DNA of 47,780 bases, taken from NCBI GenBank assembly GCA_003250475.1, contig QKGI01000115.1, positions 1 to 47,780 on the forward strand, written 5' to 3'. Every line of letters starts with the position of its first letter. Within the stretch, counting starts at the first letter, position 1. The notes beneath the pieces were generated by a model. The model did not search any database. It saw only the letters and a list, made by a program, of their open reading frames with translations, and was not told the DNA's origin. The DNA comes from Bacteroidota bacterium. Lineage in GTDB: Bacteria > Bacteroidota > Bacteroidia > Bacteroidales > VadinHA17. Made by a program: the position numbers and the translations under genes. This document shows positions 24,348 through 43,345 of this stretch, piece by piece.

Positions 24348-26717
24348 CTATTCAGTCCTGATCGAACTGGCCGGGTTGGTTAGAGCTGCCTGCCATGCTT
24401 TGTAACTTATTGTAACAAATGTTATCAGAAGGGTAAGAAGGCCGGCAAGGAGGAAAAGCGGCACTCCCAGCCTGGTCCTGTATACATAATTCTCAAGCCA
24501 GTTGCTCATAAAGAAATATGCAACCGGTACTGCAATAACGATTGATATGCATGCCAGGATGAGAAACTCTTTTACAACCAACAGCAAAATAATTTTCTCG
24601 CTGGCGCCAAATACTTTTCTTATTCCTATCTCCTTGGTCTTTTGTTCCACTGTATAAGAAGCCAGGCCAAATAGTCCGAGACAGGCGATGATAATAGCCA
24701 GCACTGTGAATAATGTAAAAATCAGGCCTCTTTTTTCATCGGTCTCAAACTGCCTGTTAAACCGTTCCGAAAGGAACGTATAGTTGTAAGGCTGATCAGG
24801 GAAGACCTCTTTCCATGTCGATTCAATGAAGCTCAACGTCTGTTCAGTATCATTACCGCTTAACTTCACATAAACAAAATTATTGATTGTCCGGTAAGCA
24901 AGCAGCAGTGATTCAATCTCATTGTACATTCCTGTCTGGTGATAGTCTTTCATCACACCCACTACTCTTGCTCTCAGCGTGTTTTCATCCCCTGCTTCAA
25001 TCTTTTTACCAATAGGATCGCTCCAGCCCATACGTTTCACGAAAGTCTCATTGACAACCACTCCCGACAGGGTATCGGAGGGCATATCTTCCTGGAATTC
25101 CCTTCCCTGGAGAATCTGAATACCAAGAGCCTCGACAAAGTCATGATCAACCACCGCAAAGTTGATACCTCGCTGGGACATCCCCTGGTCTGTCTCCACA
25201 TCAAAAAGCAGTTTTCCCGAACCCTCTCCTACAGGAGTATTCGTCGATCCGACATATTTAATGTTCGGATTATCAAGCAGCGCCTGCTTCAAGACAGGAT
25301 ATCTGTTTGTCATTGTGCGGTTTAGCTCAAGGCCAAGGACATTTTCCTGGTTAAAACCCTGGTCTGCGTTCTTAAGGAAATTAAGCTGACGAAAGACTAC
25401 CAGGGTGCATACTATCATTATTACTGACACTGTGAACTGAATTACTACCAGTATCTTCCGGAATAAACTGCCGGCAGACCCCTGGGTGATCTCACCTTTC
25501 AGTACTGTCACCGGGCTGTATTTGGAAAGGAACAGGGCAGGATAGCTACCGCCGAAAAGACCTGCGATCAGTATAATTCCCAACAGGCTGAACAGCACCA
25601 CAGGACTGCTGATCACATGCAGATCAAATGATTTGCCGGCCAGGAGGTTAAACCTGGGGAGCAGGGCAGCCAGAAGTATAAGGCTGATAACCAGAGAGAT
25701 GACAGTAAACGCAGTTGACTCCGACAGAAATTGCAGGACCAGCAGGCCGCGGCGGGATCCGACAACCTTTCTCAGTCCAACCTCCCGGGCTCTTCTTGAT
25801 GAACGCGCCGTCGCCAGATTCATGTAGTTCATGGCGGCTATCAGGATAAGGAAGAGGGCAACGATAGCGAATATATAAACGTAGGTAATACTACCTGTCG
25901 GCTCCGGCTCTGAAGGATTGCTGGAATAGAGGTGTATCCTGGTGATGGGCTCAAGGATATATTCTATTTTGATATTCAACGGCCCGAAAATAGGTTCCAT
26001 ATATGCAGCATACATACCCTGCATTTTCGTCTCAAAGGCCTTGACGTCTATTCCTTCCGGCAACAGGAGATAGGTAAATACTCCGAAATTGCCCCAGGAG
26101 CCGATCTGTTCGGGCAGGTTATTTCTTGAAGCAAGGGCATCAAAACGAAAATGAGAATTTGAGGGCACATCCCCGATAATTCCCGTTACTTCAAACGAGC
26201 GGCTATCGGTTGACAGTGTTTTGCCAATGGGGTCAGCATCCCCGAAATACCTGGCGGCTGTTTTCTCTGTGAGTATTATCTTGTTCGGCTCGGTAAGTGC
26301 TTTTCGTACATCTCCCTTGATAACTTTATATGTAAAAATGTCAAAGAGAGCAGAGTCGACGAAAAAGAAATTCTCTTCATTATATTCTTTGTCTTCGTAT
26401 TTATAAAGGGCACGAGGCATATTTATAAACCTTACTGCCGCCTCCACTTCAGGATAATCCTGCACTACCTGGGGAGCAAAAGGCAACTGTGCAAAAATCC
26501 ACGTAAACTGGTCATCTGACTCTGTTATCCTGGACGAGACCCGGTAGATACGGTCTGCATTGACATGATACCTGTCATAGCTCACTTCATCAGAAACATA
26601 AATGACAAGAAACAGTGCACTGGTTATACCAAGAGACAAACCCAGGATATTCAGGATACTGTAGCCCGCATGTTTCACAATATGCCTTATCGCAGTCTTG
26701 AAAATGTTCTTAAACAT
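24348..26717 (-). CDS. Fused MacB/FtsX-type ABC permease, cluster permease 1
   Basis: 789-residue inner-membrane protein made of two similar halves. Each half is one TM helix, a MacB-like periplasmic domain, then three FtsX helices: TM about 18-40, domain 45-250, TMs 280-400, then TM 422-443, domain 450-640, TMs 670-780. The cytoplasmic coupling sequences E-V-G-L-R-K-V-V-G-S and E-I-G-I-R-K-V-F-G-A match family consensus. It has no ATPase domain and no adjacent ATPase gene on its strand; the nearest is at 29777. It ends N-P-A-S-S-I-R-T-E, like the other cluster permeases. Such mechanotransmission permeases move lipoproteins, lipids, peptides or drugs. It diverges from the TolC gene across 391 bases. 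Confidence 0.92.
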   Translation of the reverse strand: MFKNIFKTAIRHIVKHAGYSILNILGLSLGITSALFLVIYVSDEVSYDRYHVNADRIYRVSSRITESDDQFTWIFAQLPFAPQVVQDYPEVEAAVRFINMPRALYKYEDKEYNEENFFFVDSALFDIFTYKVIKGDVRKALTEPNKIILTEKTAARYFGDADPIGKTLSTDSRSFEVTGIIGDVPSNSHFRFDALASRNNLPEQIGSWGNFGVFTYLLLPEGIDVKAFETKMQGMYAAYMEPIFGPLNIKIEYILEPITRIHLYSSNPSEPEPTGSITYVYIFAIVALFLILIAAMNYMNLATARSSRRAREVGLRKVVGSRRGLLVLQFLSESTAFTVISLVISLILLAALLPRFNLLAGKSFDLHVISSPVVLFSLLGIILIAGLFGGSYPALFLSKYSPVTVLKGEITQGSAGSLFRKILVVIQFTVSVIMIVCTLVVFRQLNFLKNADQGFNQENVLGLELNRTMTNRYPVLKQALLDNPNIKYVGSTNTPVGEGSGKLLFDVETDQGMSQRGINFAVVDHDFVEALGIQILQGREFQEDMPSDTLSGVVVNETFVKRMGWSDPIGKKIEAGDENTLRARVVGVMKDYHQTGMYNEIESLLLAYRTINNFVYVKLSGNDTEQTLSFIESTWKEVFPDQPYNYTFLSERFNRQFETDEKRGLIFTLFTVLAIIIACLGLFGLASYTVEQKTKEIGIRKVFGASEKIILLLVVKEFLILACISIVIAVPVAYFFMSNWLENYVYRTRLGVPLFLLAGLLTLLITFVTISYKAWQAALTNPASSIRTE

Positions 26718-27108
26718 ATAGCAGTTCTGTTAGATGAAAATTTCAATATAAATATCTGTAAACTTATTCTTTGTTGTCTGCCAGAAAGAAAAAAAAACAT
26801 ATCATTCCCTTTCCTTATTCCTGTTGATCATCTTCCTTGTAAACGCCGGGCCACACTGTCCCGGTTATTAAAGACGCCGTCTGCATCTGTTTGTTACAGA
26901 TTTTATATACCAGATTACGGAAAAGTATAGGTTTCATAATCACTTGCACCCGGCCCTGCCTGTCTGACATATTGTAATAATTCTTTACAGTGAGTGTCTA
27001 ATATTTTTACATTTTTCACAACATGTCAAACACTATACCTCTGTATGTATGATACTTGCGACTATGGCACATTCTTTGGCAACTGAATAGGAAAAGAGAG
27101 ATATAGAA
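26718..27108. other. 391-base divergent gap between permease 1 and the tripartite operon
   Basis: No gene recognised. It must hold promoters for both directions. The only notable element is the sigma-54-like sequence at 27065-27081. An A-rich run lies near 26785. Confidence 0.6.
27065..27081 (+). promoter_or_regulatory. Sigma-54-like -24/-12 sequence with spacing one base too long
   Basis: TGGCACATTCTTTGGCA resembles TGGCAC-N5-TTGCA except for an extra G before GCA, so GG and GC are 11 bases apart and not the usual 10. It sits 27 bases before the TolC start codon, a suitable place, and a sigma-54 activator is encoded 7 kb away. Because spacing matters to sigma-54, support is weak. Confidence 0.28.
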
Positions 27109-28461
27109 ATGAAAAGGATAATACCAGCATTAATCATTCTGTTAATTACTGTTTCCGGTAAGATGTCAGCGCAGAAGGAGTACTGGACTCTTGAAGATTG
27201 CATAACATATGCCCTGGCCAACAACCTGGAACTGCAGAGGCAGGAGCTTCAGACAGAGGCGGCAAAGGTAGAAATACAACGGGCAAGGATGAATATGTTA
27301 CCGGATCTCAATTTAGGATCTGATGCGAGGGTAGGATTCGGCAGGTCAATTGACCCGGTGACCAACCTCATCACCTTCAAGCAAAACCTCAGTAACTCTT
27401 ACTCCTTGAGTTCATCAATTGAACTCTTTAACGGTTTCGCCACACTCAATACTATCTCTGCCGGCAAGTTTATGCTCCAGGCTGGTATCGAAGCAGACAG
27501 GATAGCCCGGAATACTCTTATTGTAAATATTATGGGCCAGTACTACCGGGTGATATATGCCGAAGGGCTTGAGGCTGCTGCCAGGATGCAGCTTGAACTG
27601 TCTGAAAGGCAATTATTCAGGATCAGCAAGATGGTGGAGGCCGGGAAAGAGGCTGTAGCCCGCAAATACGAGATTGAAAGCCAGGCATCAGCAGACAGGC
27701 TGACATATACAACGGCCCAGAGTTCAACAAGGCAGGCACTGACACAGTTACGACAGATGCTGCAACTCGGATCCGGTGCTGATTTCGGTATTCAGATGCC
27801 GGAATTTGATGCCATCCTGATAACTGATACAGGGTTTGACACAGACAGTATCTATAATATTGCCGCCCAGGTTCTTCCACGCCTCAAAGCCATTGAGTAT
27901 GAGCTCAGGGCTTACGACAGGCAGCTGGCTGCTGCCAGGGGCGCCCTGGCACCGAGCCTCAGTGTCGGAGGCGCCATATATACAGGGTACTATGCCGTTC
28001 TGGGTGAAGATACACTGGATCAGGCTTCATTCAACACCCAGCTCAGGAACAATAACAGCCAGGCAATATATTTTTCCCTGAATATCCCAATCTTCAACAG
28101 GTATTCAGCCACCAGGAACATTAAACTGGCGAAAATCAGAAAGACAGATACGGAATTGCGTCTTGAAATAGAGAGAAACAATCTTTACAAGGAGATAGAA
28201 GATGCATGCCTGACCTATAACAGCGGAAGGGAGGAATATGTTGCTGCTGAGGCCAACCTGGCATTTAACAGGAAATCCTACGCCGCTGTGGAGAAAAAAT
28301 TCGAAACCGGTCTTGTGGATGTAATGGATTTCGCTACTGCTAAAGCCACCCTGTTCACAGCCGAGACCGAAGCCCTGAGAACCAAGCTTCAGCTGCTCAT
28401 CCGTAAGCTCACGATCCAGTTTTATTCTACCGGCGAATATGTAAACATTGTAACTAACTAA
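27109..28461 (+). CDS. TolC family outer-membrane channel (ABC-type tripartite system)
   Basis: 450-residue outer-membrane factor. The signal peptide is about 1-22 (K-M-S-A-Q). Two OEP halves follow: the first begins W-T-L-E-D-C-I-T-Y-A-L-A-N-N-L-E-L, and the second holds V-E-K-K-F-E-T-G-L-V-D-V-M-D-F, the typical repeat of TolC proteins. It is distinct from the RND-operon channel at 5588. It is first in an operon with the adaptor (18 bases later) and the ATPase, which together form a MacAB-TolC-like exporter. A sigma-54-like motif precedes it. Confidence 0.95.
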   Translation: MKRIIPALIILLITVSGKMSAQKEYWTLEDCITYALANNLELQRQELQTEAAKVEIQRARMNMLPDLNLGSDARVGFGRSIDPVTNLITFKQNLSNSYSLSSSIELFNGFATLNTISAGKFMLQAGIEADRIARNTLIVNIMGQYYRVIYAEGLEAAARMQLELSERQLFRISKMVEAGKEAVARKYEIESQASADRLTYTTAQSSTRQALTQLRQMLQLGSGADFGIQMPEFDAILITDTGFDTDSIYNIAAQVLPRLKAIEYELRAYDRQLAAARGALAPSLSVGGAIYTGYYAVLGEDTLDQASFNTQLRNNNSQAIYFSLNIPIFNRYSATRNIKLAKIRKTDTELRLEIERNNLYKEIEDACLTYNSGREEYVAAEANLAFNRKSYAAVEKKFETGLVDVMDFATAKATLFTAETEALRTKLQLLIRKLTIQFYSTGEYVNIVTN

Positions 28462-28479
28462 TTACAAATAATATTTAAT

Positions 28480-29754
28480 ATGGACACACCTCTTGAAAGC
28501 ATGGATAAACCTATTCCTAAAAAGAAGGGACTTCAGAAGAAACACATAGGGTATATTGTCGGCGCGGCTGCAATTCTTGTATTGATTTATATGGCCTTTT
28601 TTGCTGACCGTACCTCAACATTCAGGGTAGAGAAGGAAAAACTTATTATTGAGTCAGTGGTTGAAGGCCAGTTCAACGATTACATAACTGTACCGGGAAC
28701 AGTAGAGCCTATAAGCACCATCCTTCTTGATGCCCAGGAGGGCGGACGCGTCGAAGAGATTTTGATAGAAGAGGGGTCAATGGTTAGAAAAGGAGACATT
28801 ATCCTCAGGCTTTCCAATCCTGATCTCTATCTTAACATTCTCGACAGCGAAGCCCAGCTGGCAGAGAAAGAGAACTTCCTGAGAAATACGCAGATAGCTA
28901 TGGAACAGGACAGGCTCCAGATCAAGCGCGAACTCCTTAATCTTAAATATGATGTTGAACGTAAGGAGAGGAACTACCTTCAGAATGTGGCGCTCATAAA
29001 AGACAGCCTCATCTCAAGGGAGGAATTTCTGAGGTCGGAAGAAGACCTTGAGATGGCCAGGCAATCGCGCGAGCTGTTCATTGAACGCCAGAAGCAGGAC
29101 TCCATTTTCCGCTCTGTGCAGGTGAATAACCTGGTTAACAATCTTGAAAATATGCGCAGGAACCTGTCACTGGTGAGGCAGAGGGTTGAGAATCTCAATG
29201 TGAGGGCAACCGTTGACGGTCAGCTGGGTCTCCTTGTACCTGAGATAGGCCAGTCAATATCACGGGGCACAAATATGGGCCAGATAAACGTATTGACCTC
29301 ATTTAAGGTCACAGCCCAGATCGATGAACATTATATTGACAGGGTAAAGACACAGCTGACAGCCAAGCTTGACAGGCAGGGGAGTGAATTTGACCTTGTG
29401 GTGAGAAGGGTTTACCCGGAAGTACGGAACGGAACCTTTGAAATTGATATGATCTTCGAGGACAGCATACCAGAGAATATCAGAACCGGACAGACTTATT
29501 ATATCAGTCTGCAGCTCGGACAGCCGAAGGTGGCAGTGATGGTGCCGATAGGCGGCTTCTTCCAGGAGACAGGAGGCCAGTGGATATTTGTCCTGGACCC
29601 AACAGAATCATATGCCACCAGGCGTGATATCTCAATAGGTCGCAAAAATCCGAAATATTATGAGGTCCTTGAAGGCCTTGAACCCGGAGAGAAAGTAATC
29701 ATCTCAGGATATGACACATTCGGGAAAAACGAAAAACTTGTATTTAAAAAGTAA
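28480..29754 (+). CDS. HlyD/MacA-family periplasmic adaptor
   Basis: 424-residue membrane-fusion protein. A Lys-rich cytoplasmic N-terminus precedes one TM helix (about 24-41). A lipoyl domain half with G-G-R-V-E-E-I-L-I-E-E-G-S-M-V-R-K-G-D near 88-108 follows. A long alpha-helical hairpin rich in Glu/Arg/Leu (about 125-235) is suited to contact the TolC tunnel. The second lipoyl half, barrel domain and C-terminal domain (L-E-G-L-E-P-G-E-K-V-I-I-S-G near the end) complete it. It sits between the channel and the ATPase genes, so it should dock a permease from this cluster to TolC. The family is clear; cargo unknown. Confidence 0.94.
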   Translation: MDTPLESMDKPIPKKKGLQKKHIGYIVGAAAILVLIYMAFFADRTSTFRVEKEKLIIESVVEGQFNDYITVPGTVEPISTILLDAQEGGRVEEILIEEGSMVRKGDIILRLSNPDLYLNILDSEAQLAEKENFLRNTQIAMEQDRLQIKRELLNLKYDVERKERNYLQNVALIKDSLISREEFLRSEEDLEMARQSRELFIERQKQDSIFRSVQVNNLVNNLENMRRNLSLVRQRVENLNVRATVDGQLGLLVPEIGQSISRGTNMGQINVLTSFKVTAQIDEHYIDRVKTQLTAKLDRQGSEFDLVVRRVYPEVRNGTFEIDMIFEDSIPENIRTGQTYYISLQLGQPKVAVMVPIGGFFQETGGQWIFVLDPTESYATRRDISIGRKNPKYYEVLEGLEPGEKVIISGYDTFGKNEKLVFKK

Positions 29755-29776
29755 GTAACATTAAATAATTACAGTC

Positions 29777-30442
29777 ATGATCAAAACCAATGATTTAACC
29801 AAGATCTTCAGGACCGAAGAGGTCGAGACTACAGCACTGAACAAAGTGAACCTGCATGTTAAAGAGGGAGAGTATGTAGCTATTATGGGCCCTTCAGGAT
29901 GTGGCAAATCAACCCTCCTGAACATACTGGGGCTGCTTGACAATCCGACATCAGGTAGTTACATGTTTAACGGTACTGAGGTGGCAAACCTCAGGGAGCG
30001 TGACCGGACTATCTTCCGCAAGGGCAATATCGGTTTTGTTTTTCAGAGCTTTAACCTGATAGACGAACTTAACGTTTATGAGAATGTTGAGTTACCTCTC
30101 ATATACCTGAAGATGAAAGCCGGGGACAGGAAGAAGAAGGTGGAAGACGCCCTGACAAGGATGAAAATCGCCCACCGGGCCAAGCACTTCCCGCAACAGC
30201 TTTCCGGCGGACAACAACAGAGGGTAGCTATTGCACGTGCAGTAGTGGCAAACCCCAAACTGATCCTCGCTGACGAACCTACAGGTAACCTTGACTCCAA
30301 AAACGGCCTGGAGGTTATTAACCTGCTTAGTGAGCTTAACAAAGAGGGCACAACCATAGTTATGGTTACACACTCCGATCATGATGCCGGCTATGCCCAC
30401 AGGATAGTCAACCTGTTTGACGGACAGATAGTGACACAATAA
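29777..30442 (+). CDS. LolD/MacB-type ABC transporter ATP-binding protein
   Basis: 221-residue ATPase with full motifs: Walker [10 protein letters not shown] at 38-46, Q-loop F-V-F-Q at 87-90, signature L-S-G-G-Q at 142-146, Walker B L-I-L-A-D-E at 162-167 and switch His199. This class powers separate FtsX/MacB-like permeases. It is the only such ATPase in the 19 kb holding five permeases, and is the natural partner for at least permease 2 downstream. A hairpin resembling a terminator follows it at 30479. It lies 22 bases after the adaptor gene. Confidence 0.95.
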
Positions 30443-30478
30443 TACCTGTAACCTTACCTATTTTTTGACAAGATCACT

Positions 30479-30506
30479 GAAGAGGTGCCCCTACCGGCAC
30501 CTCTTC
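30479..30506 (+). terminator. Rho-independent terminator-like hairpin after the ATPase gene
   Basis: Perfect 11-bp GC-rich stem (GAAGAGGTGCC / GGCACCTCTTC) with a 6-base loop, 36 bases past the ATPase stop. It is followed by a modest T-rich TCTATTTAAA. It would separate the three-gene operon from permease 2, and argues against any permease start before it. The weak U-tract keeps this from being certain; it could also be an attenuator. Confidence 0.6.
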
Positions 30507-30695
30507 TATTTAAATACCTCCTATCCTTGTTTTATGCTCTCCGTATTTACCTGGAGATGTCTGAAAAATCCATATAATGCCATCCCGGGCAAGTTTGCAT
30601 GGTTGCGTATTATCATACCTGTCACTGCCGGTTTTATGCATCATAGTGGTGATATGAACGTCTTTCATGAAACACTGCAATCAAAAAGATGTCAT

Positions 30696-33107
30696 ATGGT
30701 AACCAATGACTTCATGAAGCATGCCTTTAGATCTATCGCCGGCCAGGGACACCAGGCAGCAATAAACATGACCGGCCTGGCTCTGGCACAAACATGCTGT
30801 ATCCTGATAATATTATACACCCGTTACGAGTTCAGTTTTGACAGTTACCATGAAAATGCTGACCATATATGCAGAATAGTCTCGAATCAGCCAGGCAACT
30901 CCTACAAGGGAAAAGATGTTTTCGCGGTTACACCCGGACTTTTAAAAGAGGCTCTTGTCAGTGAGATTCCTGATGTAAAGAATGCTACCAGGTGTGCCAG
31001 GAAAACCCATACCCTTGAATATGAATCCAGCCTGTTCGAAGAAAGTGGATTTTTATACGCTGATCCGGACTTTCTGAAAATTTTCACCTTCCCGGTAATC
31101 TCGGGTGATCCGGCAGATGTTCTTAATGAACCATTTGCTCTCTTCATCACAAAAGATATGGCCCGGAAATACTTTGGCGACACAGATCCTGTGGGGAAAA
31201 CGATAAAAGCCGACAACAAATACCTGTTCATTGTCAGAGGCATAATTGAAAACATCCCGCAAAACTCTCATTTCCATTTCGATTTTCTCTCCGGATTTAA
31301 TACACTGGCAAAGATAAAGGGAGGAAATGGAAGAGTGGAAACCTGGAATACCTTTGAGTTCACAACATATGTTCTGTTAAATGACAGGTCCTCGCCCGGG
31401 GATATTAACAACCGCCTTAAAGAGTTATCAGTCAAATACCTGTCCGATAATTCCTTTTTCAGGGACTCCTACTTCACCGCCGAACCTCTCAGGAGGATCC
31501 ATCTCCACAGTAACACCAATTTCAGCATTGGAAAAAACAGTGACATCAGGTACATATATCTTATAACTGCCATAGGGATTCTGATCATCCTGTTAGCCTG
31601 CTTCAACTATGTGAATATGGCCACTGCAAGAGCGTATAGCAGGGGGAAAGAAATCGGTATATTAAAAATCTCGGGAGCCGGGAGAGGCGAGATGATCGTT
31701 CAGATAATCATGGAATCGGTCATACTCTCAATCGGAGGAATGATCCTGGCCTTTGCCATTACCGGCATCCTTATGCCGGCTTTCCGTAATTTCACGGAAA
31801 GACCAATTACCTACACGATGCTGTTTGAATACCCTGTGATCGTTTTGGTAACCGGTCTCTCCCTCCTAACCGGGGTATTTTCGGGTCTCTACCCGGCATT
31901 ACGCCTCTCATCATTCACTCCTGTAAATCTTATTAACGAGTCCTTTGATACTTACGGGGGACACAGGCCGGGAAATCTCAGGAATATACTGGTGGTAGCG
32001 CAGAATATTATCTCCCTGGTCTCCCTGGTTTGCACTTTTACAGTACTGAATCAGCTACGTTATATTAAAACCTCCCGTCTTGGTTTTGAAAAGGAAAACA
32101 TTATTACCGTGGAAATCAAAGACCCGGATATCAGAAGTAAACCGGGAGCCTTAATCGATGAATTGAAGAAATATCCGGCAATACAGGACATAACAACCTC
32201 TGCTAACCTCCCGGTTACAACACTTGGCACCTCTTCTGCTTCATGGGACGGCAAACCGGAAGAAACAAAACAATTTGTTTACAGGGCAGGGATTGGTAAC
32301 AATTACATGGATTTCTACAATCTTAAAATAATACAAGGGAGAGGGTTCTCGGATGACTTTACATCAGACACAATAAACAGTTTTATTATTAATGAGACTG
32401 CTGCAAGGATGACAGGTTTGGATGATCCGGTTGGAATGAAGTTTGGATTCAACAGGGAAAAAGGTCTCGGAACAGTTATAGGTGTCGTTGAAGACTTCCA
32501 CTTCCATTCCCTGCACCTTGCCATTGAACCTCTTGCGATTGCCTCCACAGGTAATGACAGACTCAAGATTCCAGGATACCTTTCTGTCAAGGTTACACCC
32601 GGTACTATTTCCGGAACCTTGTCCTATATTAACGGGTTACTAAAGGAATATTCACCACATTACCTTAATCATGTTTCAGTTTTAAGCGACCGTGTGGATA
32701 ATATGTACCGTTCAGAAAGAAAGCTTGCCAACATATTTATTTTCTCAACGGTTCTGGCAATCCTGCTTACCTGTCTTGGCCAGTATAGTCTCTCTTCCTA
32801 TATTGCGAAGCGCCGTACAAGGGAGATGGTTATAAGAAAAGTCATGGGAGCACAGCCACCCGGAGTTATGATACTAATCATATCACAGATGATAAAGTGG
32901 GTATTTGTTTCGGTGGTTTTCGCATGGCCGGCAGCATATCTTTTAATGACAAAATGGCTGCAGAATTTTGCCAGTCATGTCAAACTCAGTGCATGGGTTT
33001 TCCTCCTTTCTTTAACCATAATAATATCGATATCGCTGCTCGCAATTGGCTACCATGTGATCAGGCTGTCCCGCGTAAACCCCGCAGAAATGCTCCGGCA
33101 TGAATAA
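30696..33107 (+). CDS. Fused MacB/FtsX-type ABC permease, cluster permease 2 (divergent coupling sequences)
   Basis: 803-residue permease with the two-half plan of the other four. I chose the ATG at 30696 because residues from here (N-D-F-M-K-H-A-F-R-S) align with the conserved N-terminus of the other cluster permeases. Upstream in-frame starts such as 30465 would read through the terminator-like hairpin; 30714 is also possible. First half: TM, periplasmic domain, three FtsX helices; second half begins near N-L-R-N-I-L-V-V-A-Q. Its coupling motifs read E-I-G-I-L-K-I-S-G-A and E-M-V-I-R-K-V-M-G-A and depart from E-I-G-I-R-K-V-x-G-A more than those of its paralogues. It ends N-P-A-E-M-L-R-H-E. 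It has no ATPase domain. Confidence 0.9.
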   Translation: MVTNDFMKHAFRSIAGQGHQAAINMTGLALAQTCCILIILYTRYEFSFDSYHENADHICRIVSNQPGNSYKGKDVFAVTPGLLKEALVSEIPDVKNATRCARKTHTLEYESSLFEESGFLYADPDFLKIFTFPVISGDPADVLNEPFALFITKDMARKYFGDTDPVGKTIKADNKYLFIVRGIIENIPQNSHFHFDFLSGFNTLAKIKGGNGRVETWNTFEFTTYVLLNDRSSPGDINNRLKELSVKYLSDNSFFRDSYFTAEPLRRIHLHSNTNFSIGKNSDIRYIYLITAIGILIILLACFNYVNMATARAYSRGKEIGILKISGAGRGEMIVQIIMESVILSIGGMILAFAITGILMPAFRNFTERPITYTMLFEYPVIVLVTGLSLLTGVFSGLYPALRLSSFTPVNLINESFDTYGGHRPGNLRNILVVAQNIISLVSLVCTFTVLNQLRYIKTSRLGFEKENIITVEIKDPDIRSKPGALIDELKKYPAIQDITTSANLPVTTLGTSSASWDGKPEETKQFVYRAGIGNNYMDFYNLKIIQGRGFSDDFTSDTINSFIINETAARMTGLDDPVGMKFGFNREKGLGTVIGVVEDFHFHSLHLAIEPLAIASTGNDRLKIPGYLSVKVTPGTISGTLSYINGLLKEYSPHYLNHVSVLSDRVDNMYRSERKLANIFIFSTVLAILLTCLGQYSLSSYIAKRRTREMVIRKVMGAQPPGVMILIISQMIKWVFVSVVFAWPAAYLLMTKWLQNFASHVKLSAWVFLLSLTIIISISLLAIGYHVIRLSRVNPAEMLRHE

Positions 33108-33153
33108 CCGGTATTTTGATGCTATCTTTATGTCTCACATAAAAAACTCAAAA

Positions 33154-33902: not shown

Positions 33903-35267
33903 TCAGATGTTATAGTATTTTATCTTGTTGTACAGGGTCTGCCTGGTAATTCCAAGCTTTCCCGAAACGACACTGACATTATTGTTATATCTCCTCAGGC
34001 TTTCGGTTATCATTTTTTTCTCCATCTCCTCAAGTGTCATCTCCTGATTATTGTAACGCACAGGTGAAGTAGCAAAAACAAAGTCGGAAGGCTTAAGAAG
34101 TGGCACCTCGCTCATTATCACTGCCTTTTCAATTGAGTGCTGCAGTTCCCTCACATTACCCGGCCAGTCATGATTTGCCAGCTTTTCAAGAGCATGGGTG
34201 CTTATCTTCATCTGTCCCTTGTTATATCTTTCAGCATGAATCCTCAGGAAGTAGTTTGCCAGTATCGGAATATCATCCACCCTGTCCCGCAGGGGAGGCA
34301 CTTCAATCATTATAGTGTTTATCCGGTAGAGGAGGTCCTCCCTGAATCTTCCCTCGTTTACCATTTTTATCAGGTCACAGTTTGTTGCGCATACCAGTCT
34401 TATGTCAACTGGGATCTGCGTGTTTGAGCCTACTCTGACGATATACCTGTTCTGAAGCACACTTAATAGTTTTGCCTGGCTTGAAAGGGAGAGGTTACCT
34501 ATTTCATCCAGGAAAAGAGTGCCTTTATGTGCCTGTTCAAACTTTCCCTTGCGATCTTCCTTCGCGTCAGTAAAGGCTCCCCTGATATGACCAAACAGCT
34601 CACTTTCAAAGAGGGTTTCGGTTATTGAACCCATATCAACGCTGATCATCAATTCACCTGACCTTGCAGACCGGGCATGGATCTCCCGTGCAATCAGCTC
34701 CTTGCCGGTACCGTTCTCACCTGTTATCAATACGTTGGCATCTGTCCCGGCTACTTTTCTGACGATGTTCATAACGTTAATCATGGTCGGCGATGCACCC
34801 TGGATGATCTTCTCCCTGCCATTATTTATCACTTTCTTTAACTGAAGGTTGTCTTCCTTTAAAGAGCTTGCTTCCAGCCTGGAAATCCTGAGTTGCAGGG
34901 CGGTGTTGATTGTGGCAAGAAGCCTGTTGGCCTCCAGAGGTTTCAAAATAAAATCCAGCGCCCCTTCCTTTATGGCCCTGACGGCCAGATCGACATCACC
35001 CGAAGCGGCAACAATAACGACGCTAAGGTTCCTGTCATAGCTGAGTATCTCTTTCAGCCAGTAAAGACCCTCATTACCATTCCTTACGACAGATTTATAA
35101 TTAGATTCCAGAAGAACGACATCCACCTCATTTTTCCTGAGCATCTCACTGATTCTTTGAGGTGAGGTGATAGGAATAACATGTTCGTATTCCTTCTGCA
35201 GTGTCCTGCTTATTAATTTCAGAAAATCGCGGTCTTCATCAACTACCAGAATCGTTGCCTTTATCAT
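33903..35267 (-). CDS. Sigma-54-dependent NtrC-family activator with degenerate receiver domain
   Basis: 454-residue regulator. Receiver domain about 1-122: the acidic pocket D10/E11 and Lys109 (L-K-P) are kept, but the phosphoacceptor position 54 is Glu (L-L-E-S-N) and the switch Thr position is Ala87 (V-A-A-S-G-D). AAA+ domain about 155-385: Walker A G-E-N-G-T-G-K at 183-189, sigma-54 contact loop G-A-F-T-D-A at 230-235 (canonical G-A-F-T-G-A), Walker B with D254/E255. A Fis-type HTH (about 411-454) ends N-K-I-K-Y-Y-N-I. Asp-to-Glu is a known phosphomimic in NtrC-type regulators, so constitutive activity is inferred. It diverges from permease 3; no histidine kinase is in the window. Confidence 0.93.
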   Translation of the reverse strand: MIKATILVVDEDRDFLKLISRTLQKEYEHVIPITSPQRISEMLRKNEVDVVLLESNYKSVVRNGNEGLYWLKEILSYDRNLSVVIVAASGDVDLAVRAIKEGALDFILKPLEANRLLATINTALQLRISRLEASSLKEDNLQLKKVINNGREKIIQGASPTMINVMNIVRKVAGTDANVLITGENGTGKELIAREIHARSARSGELMISVDMGSITETLFESELFGHIRGAFTDAKEDRKGKFEQAHKGTLFLDEIGNLSLSSQAKLLSVLQNRYIVRVGSNTQIPVDIRLVCATNCDLIKMVNEGRFREDLLYRINTIMIEVPPLRDRVDDIPILANYFLRIHAERYNKGQMKISTHALEKLANHDWPGNVRELQHSIEKAVIMSEVPLLKPSDFVFATSPVRYNNQEMTLEEMEKKMITESLRRYNNNVSVVSGKLGITRQTLYNKIKYYNI

Positions 35268-35482: not shown

Positions 35483-37840
35483 ATGATAAAAGAACACTTA
35501 ACCCTGATCTGGCGCAAAGCCTCGAGGAACAAAGTCTTTACCCTGATCAACACCCTTGGCCTGTCGGTCGGGATAGCGGTTTTCATACTGATCATCCTCT
35601 GGGTACGGAATGAGTTCTCATATGACAGGTACAATGAAAATTTCGACAACATCTACCGGATTGAAATCGAAGGGTCAGTATATATGGTCTCGGCAATTGG
35701 TCCTGCATTTAAGAATGAGTTCTCTGAAATTGAAAAGTCTGTGAGGTTCTCAGGGATGGGGCCGGCTCTTCTTACCGTAGATATGAATTCGGTCATGGTA
35801 GAGAACACCGTCCTGGCCGACTCAACCCTCTTTGATGTGTTTACCTATGAGTTCCTGTATGGCAATCCCAAAGAGGCACTTGTGACACCTTTCAGTATTG
35901 TCCTGACCGAAACCACTGCCCGCAAACTTTTTGGCGACATAAATCCCGTCGGCAGGGCACTGAGGGTTGACAACAATTTCGAGACCACGGTTACAGGTGT
36001 AATTAAGGATGTCAGCCGGACACATATGCCGGTTGATGCCATTGCCTCATTTGTCACCCTGGGTAAAATGATGCCCCAGGAAGATTATCTGTATTCATTC
36101 GGGACTTCTCAGTATCCAACATATTTCCTGATCAGGGAGGGAGTTGACATCGGCAACCTGACGGGAAAGATGACAAAATTTGCCGATGAACTTTATGTTG
36201 CCCACGGAAGGAAATCCGGGGGACATGAAAGCGAGCTTGTTCCTTTGAAGGACATATATTTCCACGAAAATTATTTTCCTTCCCACCTGCACGGTAACCT
36301 CAGATTTGTTTATATCTTCCTGATGGTATCGATCCTTACGCTTGTAATTGCATGTATCAACTTCATTAACCTCACAATAGCGAGGTCATCAACCGTTGTG
36401 CGGGAAGTAGGGGTAAAAAAAGTATTCGGTGCTTCCCAGTCCCAGCTTTTCTTCCAGTTTCTGCTTGAATCAGTCAGTCTCAGTATCATATCAGCTCTTT
36501 TTGCATTGCTTATTATCAGGGGTATTCTCCCGGAATTCAACCGGATAACCGGAGCAAATCTATCCATGGGCAACTATCTGACTGTACCATACATTCTGGC
36601 ATATTTTCTGATAGTGGTACTTATTGGAATAATAGCAGGGATATACCCTTCCATAAGGCTCTCCTCCTTCAGTCCCATTCAGTATTTACGCAGATTCGGT
36701 GGCCGCGGCGTTACAAGGTCTCCATTCAGAACAGGCCTGGTAATATTTCAGTTCACTGTTTCTATAATTCTCATCCTGTCAGTCTTTGTGGTACTCCGGC
36801 AGCTAAGCTACATGAAGAAATACAATACAGGCTTCAATCCTGAAAACATAATCCTCTTCAGCATGGATGGTGATATTCGCCATAAAATGGATGCATTCCG
36901 AAACGAAATCATGTCGATACCCAATATCGAAGAGGTGGCTTTTACAAGCGCTCCTCCCGGAACGGTCAATAACTACGAGGGTTTCAGTTACCAGGAGATC
37001 AGGGAGGGTTTTCCGGTATTCACTGTTGATCCTTCATTCCTCACGATGCTGGATGTTAAGATCACCGAAGGCAGAAACTTTTCCCGGGAGAGACCAAATG
37101 ACAGATATGGAGTATGTATACTGAACCGTGAAGCTGTAAATTTATTCGGCATGGAGAATCCAGTTGGCAGTTTTCTGAAACATCCATATTATCTTACAAC
37201 CATACCGAGAGATGATATCGAGGTTATAGGAGTCATTGATGATTATCATTATATCTCCCCGAAAGACTCGGTAGGTCCGGCTTTGTTCTGTTACGGTAAC
37301 TGGTTTAACACGGTCTGTATGAAAATCAATCCCGAGAATCTGCCCGGGGCATTGAAGCAGATTGAAACTGTCTGGAATAAATTTGCGCCAGGGTTCCCTT
37401 TCAAATACCAGTACCTCGATGAATTCTACGGAAGGCAATATTCAGGAGAATCCACACTGAGTAAGATCCTGGTATATTTTGCATTGGTGGCTATCATTAT
37501 AGCCTGCCTTGGGCTCCTGGGTCTGACATCTCTTCTTGCGCAGGAAAAGACCAGGGAGATAGGGATACGGAAAGTATCCGGAGCAACGGGCAATCTTATC
37601 ATCGGACTGTTGTCAGTAACGTTTCTGAAGTGGGTGGCCGTGGCGATAATCATCGGAACCCCGGTTGCCCTGATAGCAATGCACAAGTGGCTGATGAATT
37701 TTGCATACCATACAGCTGTCTCATGGTGGCTGGTTGCTCTGGCAGCAGTAGCACTGCTTTCTGTATCCATGTTTACAATGATCTTTCATATTCTGAGGGT
37801 ATCACGTACCAATCCGGTAGTTGCTCTAAAGTACGAATAG
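35483..37840 (+). CDS. Fused MacB/FtsX-type ABC permease, cluster permease 3
   Basis: 785-residue two-half permease (TM, periplasmic domain and three FtsX helices, twice). The N-terminus M-I-K-E-H-L-T-L-I-W-R-K-A-S matches its paralogues. Coupling sequences E-V-G-V-K-K-V-F-G-A and E-I-G-I-R-K-V-S-G-A are near consensus. The second periplasmic domain is somewhat shorter than in permeases 1 and 4. It ends N-P-V-V-A-L-K-Y-E. There is no ATPase in the same operon. It diverges from the sigma-54 activator across 215 bases, so the activator could control it, but I found no -24/-12 match in that gap. Confidence 0.92.
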   Translation: MIKEHLTLIWRKASRNKVFTLINTLGLSVGIAVFILIILWVRNEFSYDRYNENFDNIYRIEIEGSVYMVSAIGPAFKNEFSEIEKSVRFSGMGPALLTVDMNSVMVENTVLADSTLFDVFTYEFLYGNPKEALVTPFSIVLTETTARKLFGDINPVGRALRVDNNFETTVTGVIKDVSRTHMPVDAIASFVTLGKMMPQEDYLYSFGTSQYPTYFLIREGVDIGNLTGKMTKFADELYVAHGRKSGGHESELVPLKDIYFHENYFPSHLHGNLRFVYIFLMVSILTLVIACINFINLTIARSSTVVREVGVKKVFGASQSQLFFQFLLESVSLSIISALFALLIIRGILPEFNRITGANLSMGNYLTVPYILAYFLIVVLIGIIAGIYPSIRLSSFSPIQYLRRFGGRGVTRSPFRTGLVIFQFTVSIILILSVFVVLRQLSYMKKYNTGFNPENIILFSMDGDIRHKMDAFRNEIMSIPNIEEVAFTSAPPGTVNNYEGFSYQEIREGFPVFTVDPSFLTMLDVKITEGRNFSRERPNDRYGVCILNREAVNLFGMENPVGSFLKHPYYLTTIPRDDIEVIGVIDDYHYISPKDSVGPALFCYGNWFNTVCMKINPENLPGALKQIETVWNKFAPGFPFKYQYLDEFYGRQYSGESTLSKILVYFALVAIIIACLGLLGLTSLLAQEKTREIGIRKVSGATGNLIIGLLSVTFLKWVAVAIIIGTPVALIAMHKWLMNFAYHTAVSWWLVALAAVALLSVSMFTMIFHILRVSRTNPVVALKYE

Positions 37841-38163: not shown

Positions 38164-38472
38164 ATGACAGTCAAACTTAAACCCAACGAAGTCGTTCTGA
38201 AAGCCGGTGATACCAGCCAGGTGATTGACAATGCCACGATAGCAGGAAAACTGATAGTTACAAACCAGGGTTTGTATTTCAAGACCCTTGTGGAAGAGAA
38301 AGAGAAGTTTAATCTGGAGATCCTGTTCGATAACATACTTGAGGTCATCTATTTTAACCAGGGAATATTTTCTGCCAAGGGTTTAAATGTTGTTACAAGA
38401 GACGGTAATACATTCAGCTTCCCGCTCAGGAAGAGAGATGAATTCGGTCAGCTTATAAACAGGATGTACTGA
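38164..38472 (+). CDS. Small GRAM/PH-like domain protein
   Basis: 102-residue cytoplasmic protein with no signal peptide or TM segment. The pattern L-K-A-G-D-T-S-Q-V, then A-G-K-L-I-V-T-N-Q-G-L-Y-F-K and later G-N-T-F-S-F-P-L, is the strand order of GRAM/bacterial PH-like domains, which bind lipids or proteins in known cases. Length fits a single domain. It sits between permeases 3 and 4 and its end faces that of permease 4, 13 bases away. A role near the membrane with these permeases is only a guess from position. Confidence 0.7.
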   Translation: MTVKLKPNEVVLKAGDTSQVIDNATIAGKLIVTNQGLYFKTLVEEKEKFNLEILFDNILEVIYFNQGIFSAKGLNVVTRDGNTFSFPLRKRDEFGQLINRMY

Positions 38473-38485
38473 TCAAAACAGCTTA

Positions 38486-40906
38486 CTACTCATATTTCAG
38501 TGAACTTGCAGGATTGACCCTTGCAGCCCGGAGAATCCGGTAACTAATTGTTGTAAGTGCTATACCAAGAGCTATTGCAAATCCGGCAAAATAAGTGAGA
38601 ATGCCGGCATCTGCCCTGTAATAGAAGTTTTCAAGCCATTTTGCAGCTATGTAATAGATTAACGGCCACGCTATCAGAGCCGAGACAGCGACCAGTATTA
38701 CTATTTCCCTGGCGATTACCATATAGATACCTGATACCGTAGATCCCATGGCTTTTCTTACTCCAATTTCCTTTGTTCGTTGTTCGACGGTAAATGATGT
38801 AAGACCGAAGAGTCCGAGGGCTGCAATGAATATGGCCAGGATTGAAAATATTACTGCCATCTGAGCATTTTGCTTCTCCTGGCTGTACATACGCTCAAAA
38901 TCCTCATCAACAAAATAATATTGAAGAGGATTATTTGCAGTGAACTCCTTCCATAAAATCTCGATATCAGATATTGTCTCTGAATAATTTTGAGCTGAGA
39001 TTCTGACTGTCAGATAACCCCATAAAATGTCATCAGTCTTTAAACAGAAGATGTAAGGCTGAATTGGATTCCTCAGTGATTCAAAGTTAAAATTTTTGAC
39101 TACCCCTATTGTATGAAGGTATCTTATACCCCCATTGTCTGAAGGTTTCATAAATCTTGCCAGTTCGGGTTCCGATATTCCAAAGTTCCGGACAGCACTT
39201 TCATTGATCAGGCAGGCTTCCTGATCTGTGGTATGGTCCTCGCTGAAGAATCTGCCTGAAACAAGTGTCATACCATAGGTATCAAGATAATCATAATCTA
39301 CCCAGTTCGTTTGCAGTAGTAGGGTTTCGTCCTTTTTCCCCTCCAGCATGTAGCCGTTGTTGTTATTATTCCTTCCTGGAACAGCAGTGGAACTGGCAAT
39401 ATTTATGACTCCCGGGATATTCATGACTGCTTCTTTAAATGATTTCACTTTTGTTCCCAAAGCCCCGGCACGGTTTATAACAATCAGTTGTTCTTTGTTA
39501 AATCCAACATCTTTATTGAGCATATACTTTATCTGCCTGTACATTATCATAGTGCCAATAATAAGCAGAATTGACACAGAAAACTGGAAAACAACAAGCA
39601 CTCTTCTGAGCCGGCCGTTCTGCATACTGTTTTTCACACTTCCTTTAAGTACTTCATAAGGATTGAATGATGACAGGTACAATGCAGGATAGCTCCCGGA
39701 CAGGGCACCAACAACAATAGTGAAAAGAAGCAGAACCGGGATGGTATACCAGTTGGATAACAGGCTTAAAGCAAGGCTTGTGCCAAGAAGATTATTGAAA
39801 TATGGTATGGAGAGTTCAATAATAATAACAGCAATTATAAGCGATGCAAAAGAGAGAATCAGAGACTCTGAAATAAATTGAGTGATAAGCATACCACGTG
39901 TCGAACCAGCTACTTTCTTTATTCCAACCTCCTTTGCTCTTCTTGATGCCTGGGCGGTTGACAGATTCATGAAATTAACAGCTGCGATCAATACAATAAG
40001 AATGGCAATACTGGAGAAGATCCACAAGTACTTAGGATCTGCCGCTTCTTTAAACTCCTGCTGGATTGAAGGGTCAAGATGGATATCAGTAAGCTTCTGA
40101 AGATAATACCGGTATCTATTCCCCTGAGCCAGGAAATCATCGAGAGTGATCCCCATAAAATGCTGTATCTCAGGTCCAACATATTTAACCAGCAAATCAG
40201 GGATCTTATTATCTACATCAGCAGAACTGGAATTTGGTTTAAGAAGAAGATAGGTACTGAAACTGTTATTTGTCCATATTGGATCATTTGACCTTCTGTT
40301 GGTCATGAATGAAGAAATAAGATTCGCATTGAAATGTGATTTTGCCGGGATATCAGCCATGACTCCCGAAACAATATATTTGGTCGTGTCTGACCCCATT
40401 TTCAGGGCTTTGTCAATAGGATCAGCGTCTCCGAATATTTTTCTGGCTGTCGATTCGCTCAGTACAATTCTTCTGGGGCTGCTAAGCATTTCAGATGGAT
40501 CACCTTTGATAACAGGTATTGAAAAGAAATTGAAGAAAGAAGAGTCAGCGTCAACCCATCCTTCCTCAGTATAGGTCTGGCCGTCATACTCGATAACCGT
40601 TGGCCCGTGCCCAGTCATCCTCAGAAAATCTTCCACCTCTGGAAACTCCCTGTACATTGTAGGACCAACAATTGCAGCCGTTGAGGCCGCAGCTATCTCC
40701 TGGCCTCCTATCTTGCCGTCAAGTACAACCCTGTAGATGCGGTCCTTTTTAATATTGTACTGATCATAACTCGCTTCATTAAGTACAAAAAGAGAGATTA
40801 AAAGGCTGCAGGCAATCCCAATTGAAAGTCCCATAATATTAATAATAATATAGGATCTTTGTCTCTTGAATGACCTTGTAGTGTGTTTGATGAGCTTATT
40901 GAGCAT
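38486..40906 (-). CDS. Fused MacB/FtsX-type ABC permease, cluster permease 4
   Basis: 806 residues, the longest of the five, with the same duplicated plan. The start M-L-N-K-L-I-K-H-T-T-R-S-F aligns with the other N-termini. Coupling sequences are E-V-G-I-K-K-V-A-G-S and E-I-G-V-R-K-A-M-G-S, both ending in Ser where most paralogues have Ala. It ends N-P-A-S-S-L-K-Y-E. It is transcribed after permease 5, 66 bases downstream of it, so these two may form a permease-only operon. No ATPase domain. Confidence 0.92.
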   Translation of the reverse strand: MLNKLIKHTTRSFKRQRSYIIINIMGLSIGIACSLLISLFVLNEASYDQYNIKKDRIYRVVLDGKIGGQEIAAASTAAIVGPTMYREFPEVEDFLRMTGHGPTVIEYDGQTYTEEGWVDADSSFFNFFSIPVIKGDPSEMLSSPRRIVLSESTARKIFGDADPIDKALKMGSDTTKYIVSGVMADIPAKSHFNANLISSFMTNRRSNDPIWTNNSFSTYLLLKPNSSSADVDNKIPDLLVKYVGPEIQHFMGITLDDFLAQGNRYRYYLQKLTDIHLDPSIQQEFKEAADPKYLWIFSSIAILIVLIAAVNFMNLSTAQASRRAKEVGIKKVAGSTRGMLITQFISESLILSFASLIIAVIIIELSIPYFNNLLGTSLALSLLSNWYTIPVLLLFTIVVGALSGSYPALYLSSFNPYEVLKGSVKNSMQNGRLRRVLVVFQFSVSILLIIGTMIMYRQIKYMLNKDVGFNKEQLIVINRAGALGTKVKSFKEAVMNIPGVINIASSTAVPGRNNNNNGYMLEGKKDETLLLQTNWVDYDYLDTYGMTLVSGRFFSEDHTTDQEACLINESAVRNFGISEPELARFMKPSDNGGIRYLHTIGVVKNFNFESLRNPIQPYIFCLKTDDILWGYLTVRISAQNYSETISDIEILWKEFTANNPLQYYFVDEDFERMYSQEKQNAQMAVIFSILAIFIAALGLFGLTSFTVEQRTKEIGVRKAMGSTVSGIYMVIAREIVILVAVSALIAWPLIYYIAAKWLENFYYRADAGILTYFAGFAIALGIALTTISYRILRAARVNPASSLKYE

Positions 40907-40972
40907 ACCTGCCTGTTTTAATCTGATTTTACGAAAAGGACCAAATCACTTTAGTAAATTGAATGGCGCGGT

Positions 40973-43345
40973 TTACTCAATCTTTAATGCTTCCGCAGGA
41001 TTTATACATGAAGCCCTGTAAGCCTGATAACCCACGGTAAGTATTGCAATCAGTATTGTTCCGGCTGCAATACCGATAAATACAAGTATGCTCATGTCAA
41101 TCCTGTAAGCGAACTGCTGTAACAGTTTGTGGACTATCAGCCACCCTGCCGGAAGTGCAATAACGAGTGATATCACCACAAGCATGAGGAACTCCCTTGC
41201 CATTGCATAGATAACATTCAGAGAATCGGCACCCATTACTTTCCTGATACCTATTTCGTTCGTCCTCCGTTCAGTGGAATAGGATGACAGCCCGTAAAGG
41301 CCCAGTGATGCAATAATCAACGCCAGGATTGTGAAATACTTAAGAAGGTCTGCCAGACGCATTTCTGCCCTGAACAGGTTATTGTAATCCTGATCGATGA
41401 AGGTGTACTCGAGAGGGTATTCCGGGATTACCTCTTTCCATGTTGCCTCAACTGCTGCGAGTGACTCCTTCACCTTTCCCGGGGTCAGTCTCACCAGCAT
41501 AATTCTCAGGAAGCTGGTATCTGCCAGGGCAAAGGCCATTGGTTCTATCTCCCTGTCAGCTCCCTTAAAGTGGAAGTTTTTCAGTACCCCTACTATTGTT
41601 CCCTGCAGCCCCATGAATCTGAAGTTCTTTCCAACCGGATCACCTATATCCATCATCCTGACTACCTCTTCATTAATAAGGAAATTACCTGTCGTGTCCC
41701 CAGCCATGTCGGAAGTGAACTCCCTGGAGAAATCCCGTCCGGAGACAAGCTTCATCTTCATGGTCTCCAGGTAATCATAGTCGACTCCGTTTGTTCCGAT
41801 AAGCACATGTTTGTCAGGATCTTTCCCATCCCAGCTGGCACCTCCCGAGTTACTTCCCATCATCACGGGATTATGAAGCGAGGCTGTCACTCCCCTGATC
41901 AGCGGCTCCTGCAACAGTTCGCTCTTAAGTGAGTAATACTTGCCCTTCATCTCGTCAGACATGGGTATCCCTATAAGGTTCTCCTTATCAAAACCAAGGT
42001 CTTTGTTCTGAAGGAACCTGAGCTGCATATACATGAACACTGCAGACACGGCAATGATGACGGAAAGGGTGAACTGTACCACAACAAGAATCTTCCGGAG
42101 TCTGCCGTTCCCTTTCCCTGTCATACTATCACCCTTAAGTGTTGCCGCAGGTTTGATCGCAGACAGATAAAAAGCCGGATAAAGGCCTGACACTATGCCG
42201 GCAAGAATGCCTATTATGACAAAGCTGATAATAAACCTCCCGTGAAGCAGGTCTCTCAGGACAAACTCCTTCCCTGATACATCGTTAAACAGCTGCAGGG
42301 AAAGCCCTATTATTACCAGGGCAAGTATCATCGACATAGTCACGAGAATGAGCGACTCCGACATAAACTGTACGATCATTGTCTTTCTTTCAGCCCCTAC
42401 AACCTTCCTGATGCCTATCTCCTTTGATCTTGATGATGCCTTGGCTGTTGACAGGTTAATGAAGTTAATGCAGGCTATTAACAAAACGAATACAGCTATC
42501 AGAGAGAAAATATAAAGTACTATAACAGGGCCCTTGCGTTCCTGAAAGCCGAACTGCGCATGCAGATGAATGTCAAGCAACGGGAAGACGCTGAATTTTG
42601 TCGTGGTTGTCGGATGATACTCCAGCACCACATCTGTGAGCTTCCTGTTCACGTTTTCCAGGTCAGAGCCCTCTTCAAGCTGGACAAATGTGAGGATTGA
42701 ATTGCTTCCCCATGAAGTGCTTACAGCGCCTATCTCCTTCAGGAAAGAAAAAGGTATCACCCCTTCGAAGGAGAAGATAGAGTTCTCGGGTATCTCTTTC
42801 ATGACGCCGGTAACCATGAACTGGTATTTATTCTCCAGAGAAAGAGTTTTGCCAACCGGATTTGTGTCGCCGAAATATTTCTTTGCCAGCTTTTCCGACA
42901 GAATAATTGAATTGGGTGCATTCAGTGCTGTTGCGGGGTCACCTCTCAGGAGCGGCAGGGTGAACATCCTGAGTAACCCGGAGTCAGATGCGACTATTGA
43001 TGACTCAAAGAAGACCTTATCCTCATTTCGGAATAATATACGCGGCAGCCTGTTTATGCGGGCCTGCTCAACAATCTCCGGTATCTTTTCTTTCCAGACA
43101 GGTCCGCTGGGTTGCGGAGTAACGGTGACATGATACCTCTCACCGGAGTAGAACTGGTCCTCCTCCACCCGGTAGATACTGGCGGCATTTTTATGGAATC
43201 TGTCGAAGCTGAGTTCATCCTGGACCCACAATACCAGGAGCAGCGATGCAGACAACCCGATAGCCAGGCCGGCTATGTTCAGGAAAGTAAATACTTTATG
43301 TCTGGTGATGTTACGGAGCGCAACGCGAAAGTAATTTCGGATCAT
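40973..43345 (-). CDS. Fused MacB/FtsX-type ABC permease, cluster permease 5
   Basis: 790-residue two-half permease. I set the start at 43345 (M-I-R-N-Y-F-R-V-A-L-R-N-I), which aligns with its paralogues; an ATG at 43411 adds a 22-residue stretch absent from them. Coupling sequences E-I-G-I-R-K-V-V-G-A and E-I-G-I-R-K-V-M-G-A are the closest to consensus of the set. It ends N-P-A-E-A-L-K-I-E. It is the probable first gene of the permease 5-4 pair and lies 82 bases downstream of the MFS gene on the same strand. Confidence 0.92.
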   Translation of the reverse strand: MIRNYFRVALRNITRHKVFTFLNIAGLAIGLSASLLLVLWVQDELSFDRFHKNAASIYRVEEDQFYSGERYHVTVTPQPSGPVWKEKIPEIVEQARINRLPRILFRNEDKVFFESSIVASDSGLLRMFTLPLLRGDPATALNAPNSIILSEKLAKKYFGDTNPVGKTLSLENKYQFMVTGVMKEIPENSIFSFEGVIPFSFLKEIGAVSTSWGSNSILTFVQLEEGSDLENVNRKLTDVVLEYHPTTTTKFSVFPLLDIHLHAQFGFQERKGPVIVLYIFSLIAVFVLLIACINFINLSTAKASSRSKEIGIRKVVGAERKTMIVQFMSESLILVTMSMILALVIIGLSLQLFNDVSGKEFVLRDLLHGRFIISFVIIGILAGIVSGLYPAFYLSAIKPAATLKGDSMTGKGNGRLRKILVVVQFTLSVIIAVSAVFMYMQLRFLQNKDLGFDKENLIGIPMSDEMKGKYYSLKSELLQEPLIRGVTASLHNPVMMGSNSGGASWDGKDPDKHVLIGTNGVDYDYLETMKMKLVSGRDFSREFTSDMAGDTTGNFLINEEVVRMMDIGDPVGKNFRFMGLQGTIVGVLKNFHFKGADREIEPMAFALADTSFLRIMLVRLTPGKVKESLAAVEATWKEVIPEYPLEYTFIDQDYNNLFRAEMRLADLLKYFTILALIIASLGLYGLSSYSTERRTNEIGIRKVMGADSLNVIYAMAREFLMLVVISLVIALPAGWLIVHKLLQQFAYRIDMSILVFIGIAAGTILIAILTVGYQAYRASCINPAEALKIE

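Follow-up and report, generated by a model that had tools for sequence, protein, structure and literature searches.

Genes of the locus

The window, ie the whole 47,780-nucleotide stretch that was analysed (contig QKGI01000115.1), comes from a Bacteroidota draft genome of 168 contigs. Its central genes are as follows.

24348..26717, minus strand: fused MacB_PCD-FtsX permease, 789 aa (ORF call, domain search, paralogue comparison)
27109..28461, plus strand: TolC-family outer membrane channel, 450 aa (OEP, 1.4e-42)
28480..29754, plus strand: HlyD/DarC-like periplasmic adaptor, 424 aa (NF038010 DarC, 200 bits, cut-off 450; RND_mfp, 139, over its cut-off of 94.9)
29777..30442, plus strand: DarD/LolD-type ABC ATPase, 221 aa, proposed common motor (NF038007 DarD, 284 bits, cut-off 375)
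30696..33107, plus strand: fused permease, 803 aa from the ATG at 30696 (ORF, domains)
35483..37840, plus strand: fused permease, 785 aa (ORF, domains)
38486..40906, minus strand: fused permease, 806 aa (ORF, domains)
40973..43345, minus strand: fused permease, 790 aa from the ATG at 43345; modelled (ORF, domains, structure model)

Five duplicated MacB/FtsX permeases of 785-806 aa thus lie within 19 kb around one TolC-adaptor-ATPase core. A Pfam-type domain search found two MacB_PCD and two FtsX stretches in all five and an ABC_tran match in none, which bears out the original prediction of five permeases of about that length, each with two MacB/FtsX halves and without an ATPase domain. The single ATPase, HlyD adaptor and TolC protein claimed for the interval were also the only ones found there by ORF and domain search; a second ABC ATPase, 34% identical to the one at 29777, lies at 14800-15516, about 8.8 kb outside. 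All five permease calls stood, and only one start codon had to be corrected: the ORF at 30465-33107 (plus) opens with TTG and would give 880 aa, while its in-frame ATG at 30696 gives 803 aa. Similarly, the ORF at 40973-43411 (minus) gives 812 aa from a TTG and 790 aa from the ATG at 43345. The C-terminal pattern N-P-x-x-x-[LI]-[KR]-x-E, from which paralogy had been argued, is present in all five, and the 40973 protein shares 31-36% identity with the other four; the likeness is therefore that of old paralogues and not of chance. Between two of the permeases lies an ORF of 102 aa (38164-38472) with no Pfam match, and between a permease and the regulator described below an Asp/Glu racemase (33100-33846), which is found at the same place in genome G014 (71%).

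Searches for MacB_PCD, FtsX and ATPase domains, together with blastp, gave nine full-length fused permeases in the genome: besides the five of the window there is a single one on each of the contigs C46, C17, C58 and C138. In the surroundings of the latter four (12.0, 15.5, 3.0 and 20.0 kb) blastp detected no homologue of the ATPase or of the adaptor; the C58 stretch says little, that contig being only 3 kb long.

Structure and conservation of the permeases

The model of the 40973 permease (pLDDT 87.6, pTM 0.81) has two periplasmic domains and eight long helices, at residues 17-45, 274-304, 320-357, 369-395, 411-446, 659-693, 708-742 and 753-779, which were assigned to the membrane by eye. Short helices at 307-316 and 695-703 occupy the positions of known coupling helices. 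Among the five permeases the two coupling segments are 49% and 64% identical and the two periplasmic domains 31% and 27%; over 32 sequences the figures are 47 and 57%, and 21 and 22%. The two best-conserved 27-residue windows end in the coupling segments. Conservation is thus highest in the cytoplasmic coupling segments, and the periplasmic domains have drifted apart.

The best fold match over the length of the model was YbbP (E 1.6e-19, TM 0.48), followed by MacB-like permeases, whereas the linear sequence profile favours MacB over YbbP and the best sequence match is the Porphyromonas permease domain 3is6. The coupling motif is degenerate in two of the nine fused permeases of the genome. It was rejected as a specific signature because similar motifs occur in the genome's single MacB-type permeases; the segment thus points to a kept docking site but not to the specificity of that site.

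Comparison with known systems

With a MacB periplasmic core and FtsX domains, a LolD/MacB-type ATPase and a coupling helix between TM2 and TM3, these proteins belong to the type VII (MacB-like) ABC superfamily. The ECF module is one ATPase unit for several importers, and MceG and FhuC are reportedly ATPases common to several importers. The present arrangement resembles these importers and MsmK in that one ATPase appears, by comparison of sequences, to be kept with several unlinked permeases; it differs in that theirs have other folds, while here the permeases are of the type VII export type and number up to about 30 per genome. MsmK serves several importers (PMC4519317).

The darobactin exporter DarBCD (NF038008, NF038010, NF038007) likewise has a fused permease, an HlyD-type adaptor and a separate ATPase, and DarC and DarD are the best NCBIfam equivalogs of the adaptor and ATPase, although the scores fall far short of the curated equivalog cut-offs (DarD 284 of 375, DarC 200 of 450, DarB 96-166 of 700). 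Neither a darA precursor nor a darE radical-SAM gene was found by Pfam among 19 window proteins, a scan which a short precursor would escape. The dar cluster as described has one permease (PMC9055067), whereas here the ATPase is proposed to serve many. The best NCBIfam match of all five permeases is ADOP (TIGR03434), at 262-330 bits and below its cut-off of 622, with DarB next. ADOP proteins too are two-half permeases of about 800 aa with no ATPase domain and in many copies, 28 and 33 being reported for two Dyadobacter genomes (PMC11573002) and 102 for one Acidobacteriota genome (PMC10564751); their name reflects the lack of a known ATPase, and one is proposed here.

MacAB-TolC shares the MacB periplasmic core and FtsX domains, the adaptor and TolC. 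Its ATPase, however, forms the permease N-terminus, while here it is a separate gene and ABC_tran is missing from the five permeases; unlike in MacAB-TolC, two permease units are fused and there are several permeases per ATPase. YbbAP-TesA has a fused permease of about 800 aa, a separate ATPase and two coupling helices, and gave the best fold match, but YbbP is described as having a dedicated ATPase and an additional pair of linking helices (PMC12646458), and the present model shows eight long membrane-type helices without the linking pair.

Co-occurrence of the ATPase and the fused permeases

A profile built from 17 DarD-type ATPases set these apart as a clade of their own: members, including copies outside the alignment, scored at least 398 bits, and all other ATPase ORFs compared scored at most 267. 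The nearest named records, among the best 80 matches listed, are from Bacteroidales, Aquimarina and others, at up to 77% identity. In the larger genome sets a second ATPase subfamily scored at E of about 1e-91 to 1e-99, and two E-value cuts are reported for that reason. The idea of an unusual constraint on a shared ATPase found no support when DarD was compared with the LolD-like ATPase in the same 14 genomes (83.2 vs 80.6%, p 0.22); against the MacB-type ATPase, DarD was the more conserved in the five genomes compared.

Genome counts are given in the order both genes, ATPase only, permease only, neither. Forty relatives gave 17, 1 (G018), 4 (G003, with a fragment, G008, G012 and G035) and 18; the genus alone, before crediting DarD fragments, gave 7, 1, 3 and 11 (Fisher p 0.006). 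G012 has a DarD fragment at a contig end, and the G008 contig breaks off within the adaptor gene, immediately ahead of the ATPase position. Among 392 genomes of the order (minimum completeness 90) the counts were 201, 8, 8 and 175, and at E ≤ 1e-100 they were 197, 1, 12 and 182, four more permease genomes holding just the weaker second subfamily at the strict cut. Two of the eight permease-only genomes, G159 and G381, hold DarD fragments at contig ends; the six with permeases in which no DarD was found are G035, G148, G175, G371, G400 and G405. G375 has DarD without a permease. Across the phylum (158 genomes) the ATPase was found in 44 at 1e-90 and permeases in 42; the two extra genomes, G480 and G495, hold only the weaker subfamily, so that the table becomes exact at E ≤ 1e-100 (42, 0, 0 and 116). 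In four genera (g213, g215, g216 and g225) whose listed congeners are not all in the same state, both genes change together every time. In the order scan only the two best permease candidates of each genome were scored, and in the phylum scan only the six best, so that these scans give presence and not counts. The co-occurrence is partly trivial where the permease sits in the DarD operon. LolD-like and MacB-type ATPases are present in genomes that have neither DarD nor fused permeases.

Four Acidobacteriota loci (L124, L125, L126 and L131) carry a DarD-like ATPase (271-328 bits), with fused permeases nearby in three. The pairing may extend to this, the original ADOP phylum.

Numbers and distances

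Eleven well-assembled genomes (1-20 contigs) were hand-picked from the ATPase-positive set and all their permease candidates scored, giving 80 fused permeases and 13 DarD in the following ratios.

G268, 31:2
G407, 25:2
G146, 5:1
G286, 4:1
G271, 4:1
G376, 3:1
G083, G214 and G399, 2:1
G196 and G314, 1:1

The ratio of one ATPase to many permeases is thus kept in relatives, and is often larger elsewhere than in the window; fragmented genomes gave up to 17:1 and 23:2, counts which are inflated by pieces at contig ends. DarD lies within 1.5 kb of 14 of the 80 permeases, and for 50 the distance exceeds 20 kb or the contig has no DarD. The same genomes were searched for the arrangement that would speak against the original prediction, in which every permease has its own adjoining ATPase: 56 of the 80 have neither DarD nor another type-VII-like ATPase (E ≤ 1e-40) within 5 kb, and another such ATPase lies within 1.5 kb of only two, both among the 25 of G407. 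In G268, 30 of 31 permeases are far from DarD and none of the 31 has another type-VII-like ATPase within 5 kb. In G407, a single-contig genome, one DarD gene is followed by a series of about 22 fused permeases that all lie on the same strand and span roughly 59 kb (G407:C1:2505431-2564818).

The converse arrangement also occurs. The TolC-adaptor-ATPase operon of G022 is free of permeases over the flanking 10.3 and 9.0 kb, and the genome has five elsewhere; G033 and G039 each have the ATPase without a nearby permease and one permease elsewhere. With no permease nearby, the ATPase of such loci would need one in trans, if it has any. In G014 the entire order of the window is kept, the five permeases being 62-85% identical and the ATPase 95%. 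The permease at 24348-26717 has an orthologue at the same place in G014 (79-80%), G011 (78%) and G017 (78%). The core and regulator are kept in G010, G011 and G021, where some of the permeases were lost or never present; broken permease copies occur in G021 (pieces of one) and G003. Four permeases follow the ATPase in Sinomicrobium and Pedobacter, and two in Aquimarina agarilytica. An adaptor stands beside the ATPase at most DarD loci examined, and none is nearby at G030, G033, G037a, G039 and G014b.

Promoter and regulator

Four further features concern expression.

26985..27011, plus strand: conserved upstream block TTTACA..TGTCTAATATTTTTACA, near -110 (alignment of six genus loci)
27065..27081, plus strand: sigma-54-like -24/-12 element TGGCACATTCTTTGGCA (TGGCAC-N5-TTGG), 27 nt before the TolC start
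30479..30506, plus strand: strong RNA hairpin separating the ATPase gene from the following permease (-21.1 kcal/mol, z -6.96)
33903..35267, minus strand: sigma-54-type response regulator (receiver, AAA+, Fis HTH; domain search), with Glu at the phospho-acceptor place

Over the whole window the first sigma-54 pattern gave 24 matches against 23.8 by chance, while a scan restricted to upstream regions showed the element before TolC and adaptor genes. The pattern was then adjusted after the data had been seen, a match being a score of at least 9 of 10, and the enrichment is therefore partly post hoc. The element was found before 27 of 63 core genes (TolC 12/20, adaptor 11/26, ATPase 4/17; loci L045 and L046 overlap, and the same TolC is counted twice), compared to 8 of 233 controls, and before 1 of 27 regulators. 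By hand count it stood 19-44 nt before the start in 20 of the 27 core matches and in 1 of the 8 control matches. A single sigma-54 regulon for all permeases was rejected, only 3 of 59 permeases having the element, a rate to be set beside that of the controls. Since the enrichment is before the core and not the permeases, the sigma-54 regulator probably controls the core, with the permeases expressed by other means. The block at 26985-27011, which recurs nowhere else in the window even when up to 3 mismatches are allowed, is a candidate activator site for that regulator. The hairpin was not called as a terminator (weak T run) and is possibly an attenuator or weak terminator; given its place after the ATPase gene, co-expression with the core may be incomplete even for the neighbouring permease.

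The phospho-acceptor residue of the regulator is Glu in four of six genus members (the window, G014, G010 and G012) and Asp in G011 and G021, and the Glu-bearing form is possibly always on. There is no kinase gene beside the regulator in the genus; at all loci, a motif heuristic placed 12 of 28 regulators next to a kinase. All but one of the 28 have G-[AS]-F-T-D-A instead of GAFTGA.

Proposed mechanism and alternatives

The computed basis for what follows consists of domain make-up, the obligate co-occurrence of the ATPase clade with the permeases, the many-to-one ratio, distance, conservation of the coupling segments and the sigma-54-type promoter of the core. The idea that one ATPase serves many permeases is strongly supported by the comparative genomics (co-occurrence, ratio and distance), and the ATPase is most likely common to all fused permeases of the cell. 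We propose, with a probability of about 0.75, a type VII tripartite exporter made up of one energising core and exchangeable permeases, in which the single ATPase serves all nine in trans. Each permease would be a tandem fusion of two four-helix MacB units, so that one polypeptide would replace the MacB dimer, and would dock two copies of the same DarD-type ATPase through its two coupling helices; a ratio of two ATPases to one fused pseudo-dimer is suggested by analogy with YbbAP (PMC12646458). Together with the adaptor and TolC, the ATPase would serve the window's five permeases as well as the four scattered ones, and by analogy with MacB as described in PMC5985334, export from the periplasm would proceed by mechanotransmission through adaptor and TolC. 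Common use of the adaptor and TolC is presumed in this scheme. Different permeases may carry different cargos, as the divergence of their periplasmic domains (27-31% identity) suggests; a Pfam scan of nine further window proteins gave no pointer to cargo. Most likely the system serves as a set of exporters or extractors that carry peptides, lipids or toxic compounds from the periplasm to the outside, a set that grows at little cost because only permeases need to be added.

The unlinked permeases might instead share the ATPase and bypass the adaptor and TolC, acting as envelope mechanotransducers or extractors like LolCDE, FtsEX and YbbAP, with only some permeases joining a tripartite pump. We regard this as possible, though doubtful. 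It would account for the failure of blastp to find adaptor homologues around the four unlinked permeases, for the DarD loci with no adaptor nearby, and for a sigma-54-type promoter on the core alone; the best fold match, YbbP, works without TolC according to the account in PMC12646458. On the other hand, most DarD loci examined do have the adaptor beside the ATPase, and by linear sequence profile the permease is closer to MacB than to YbbP.

Two readings would remove the scattered permeases from the reach of DarD altogether. It is improbable that DarD serves only the permeases adjoining it, with the scattered ones driven by the genome's LolD-like or MacB-type ATPases: further type-VII-like ATPases do exist there, and single MacB-type permeases carry a similar coupling motif, but genomes that have those ATPases without DarD are almost always without fused permeases, and the 31 permeases of G268 have none of them within 5 kb. 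We consider it very unlikely that the scattered copies are degenerating or independent of ATP (sensors, scaffolds or genes being lost). The two degenerate coupling motifs and the broken copies in G021 and G003 would fit such decay; against it, all nine permeases of the genome are full length and open, the G014 orthologues stand at the same places with 62-85% identity, and 80 of 102 such permeases are reported as transcribed in an Acidobacteriota genome (PMC10564751).

A common ATPase serving all nine permeases would, if true, be the first type VII ABC system with a common motor, and would extend to the MacB-like superfamily a shared-motor principle known for importers. No case in type VII systems was found in the open-access literature searched, and the available text of a review of the MacB superfamily describes fused and separate ATPases and no shared one (PMC5985334). 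It would also account for the energy supply of a large 'orphan' permease family, whose members, about 800 aa long and present in large sets in Bacteroidota and Acidobacteriota, stand without assigned function or ATPase in the accessible parts of two reports (PMC11573002, PMC10564751). We are inclined to think that the duplicated 'orphan' permeases of Bacteroidota, and likely the ADOP of Acidobacteriota, are interchangeable parts of one ECF-like export platform, in which a DarD core, with its own sigma-54 switch where the regulator is present, energises up to about 30 (perhaps 100) permeases. As one small gene, the DarD-type ATPase would be a lever that switches off the whole repertoire, which would make the role of these permeases testable by one knockout.

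Members of the weaker second ATPase subfamily were seen beside or near DarD or permeases at G455:C24:27368-28723, G467:C16:18740-20095, L120, L124, L128 and G407:C1:2561621. Such an ATPase may form one half of a heterodimer that matches the two unlike halves of the permease.
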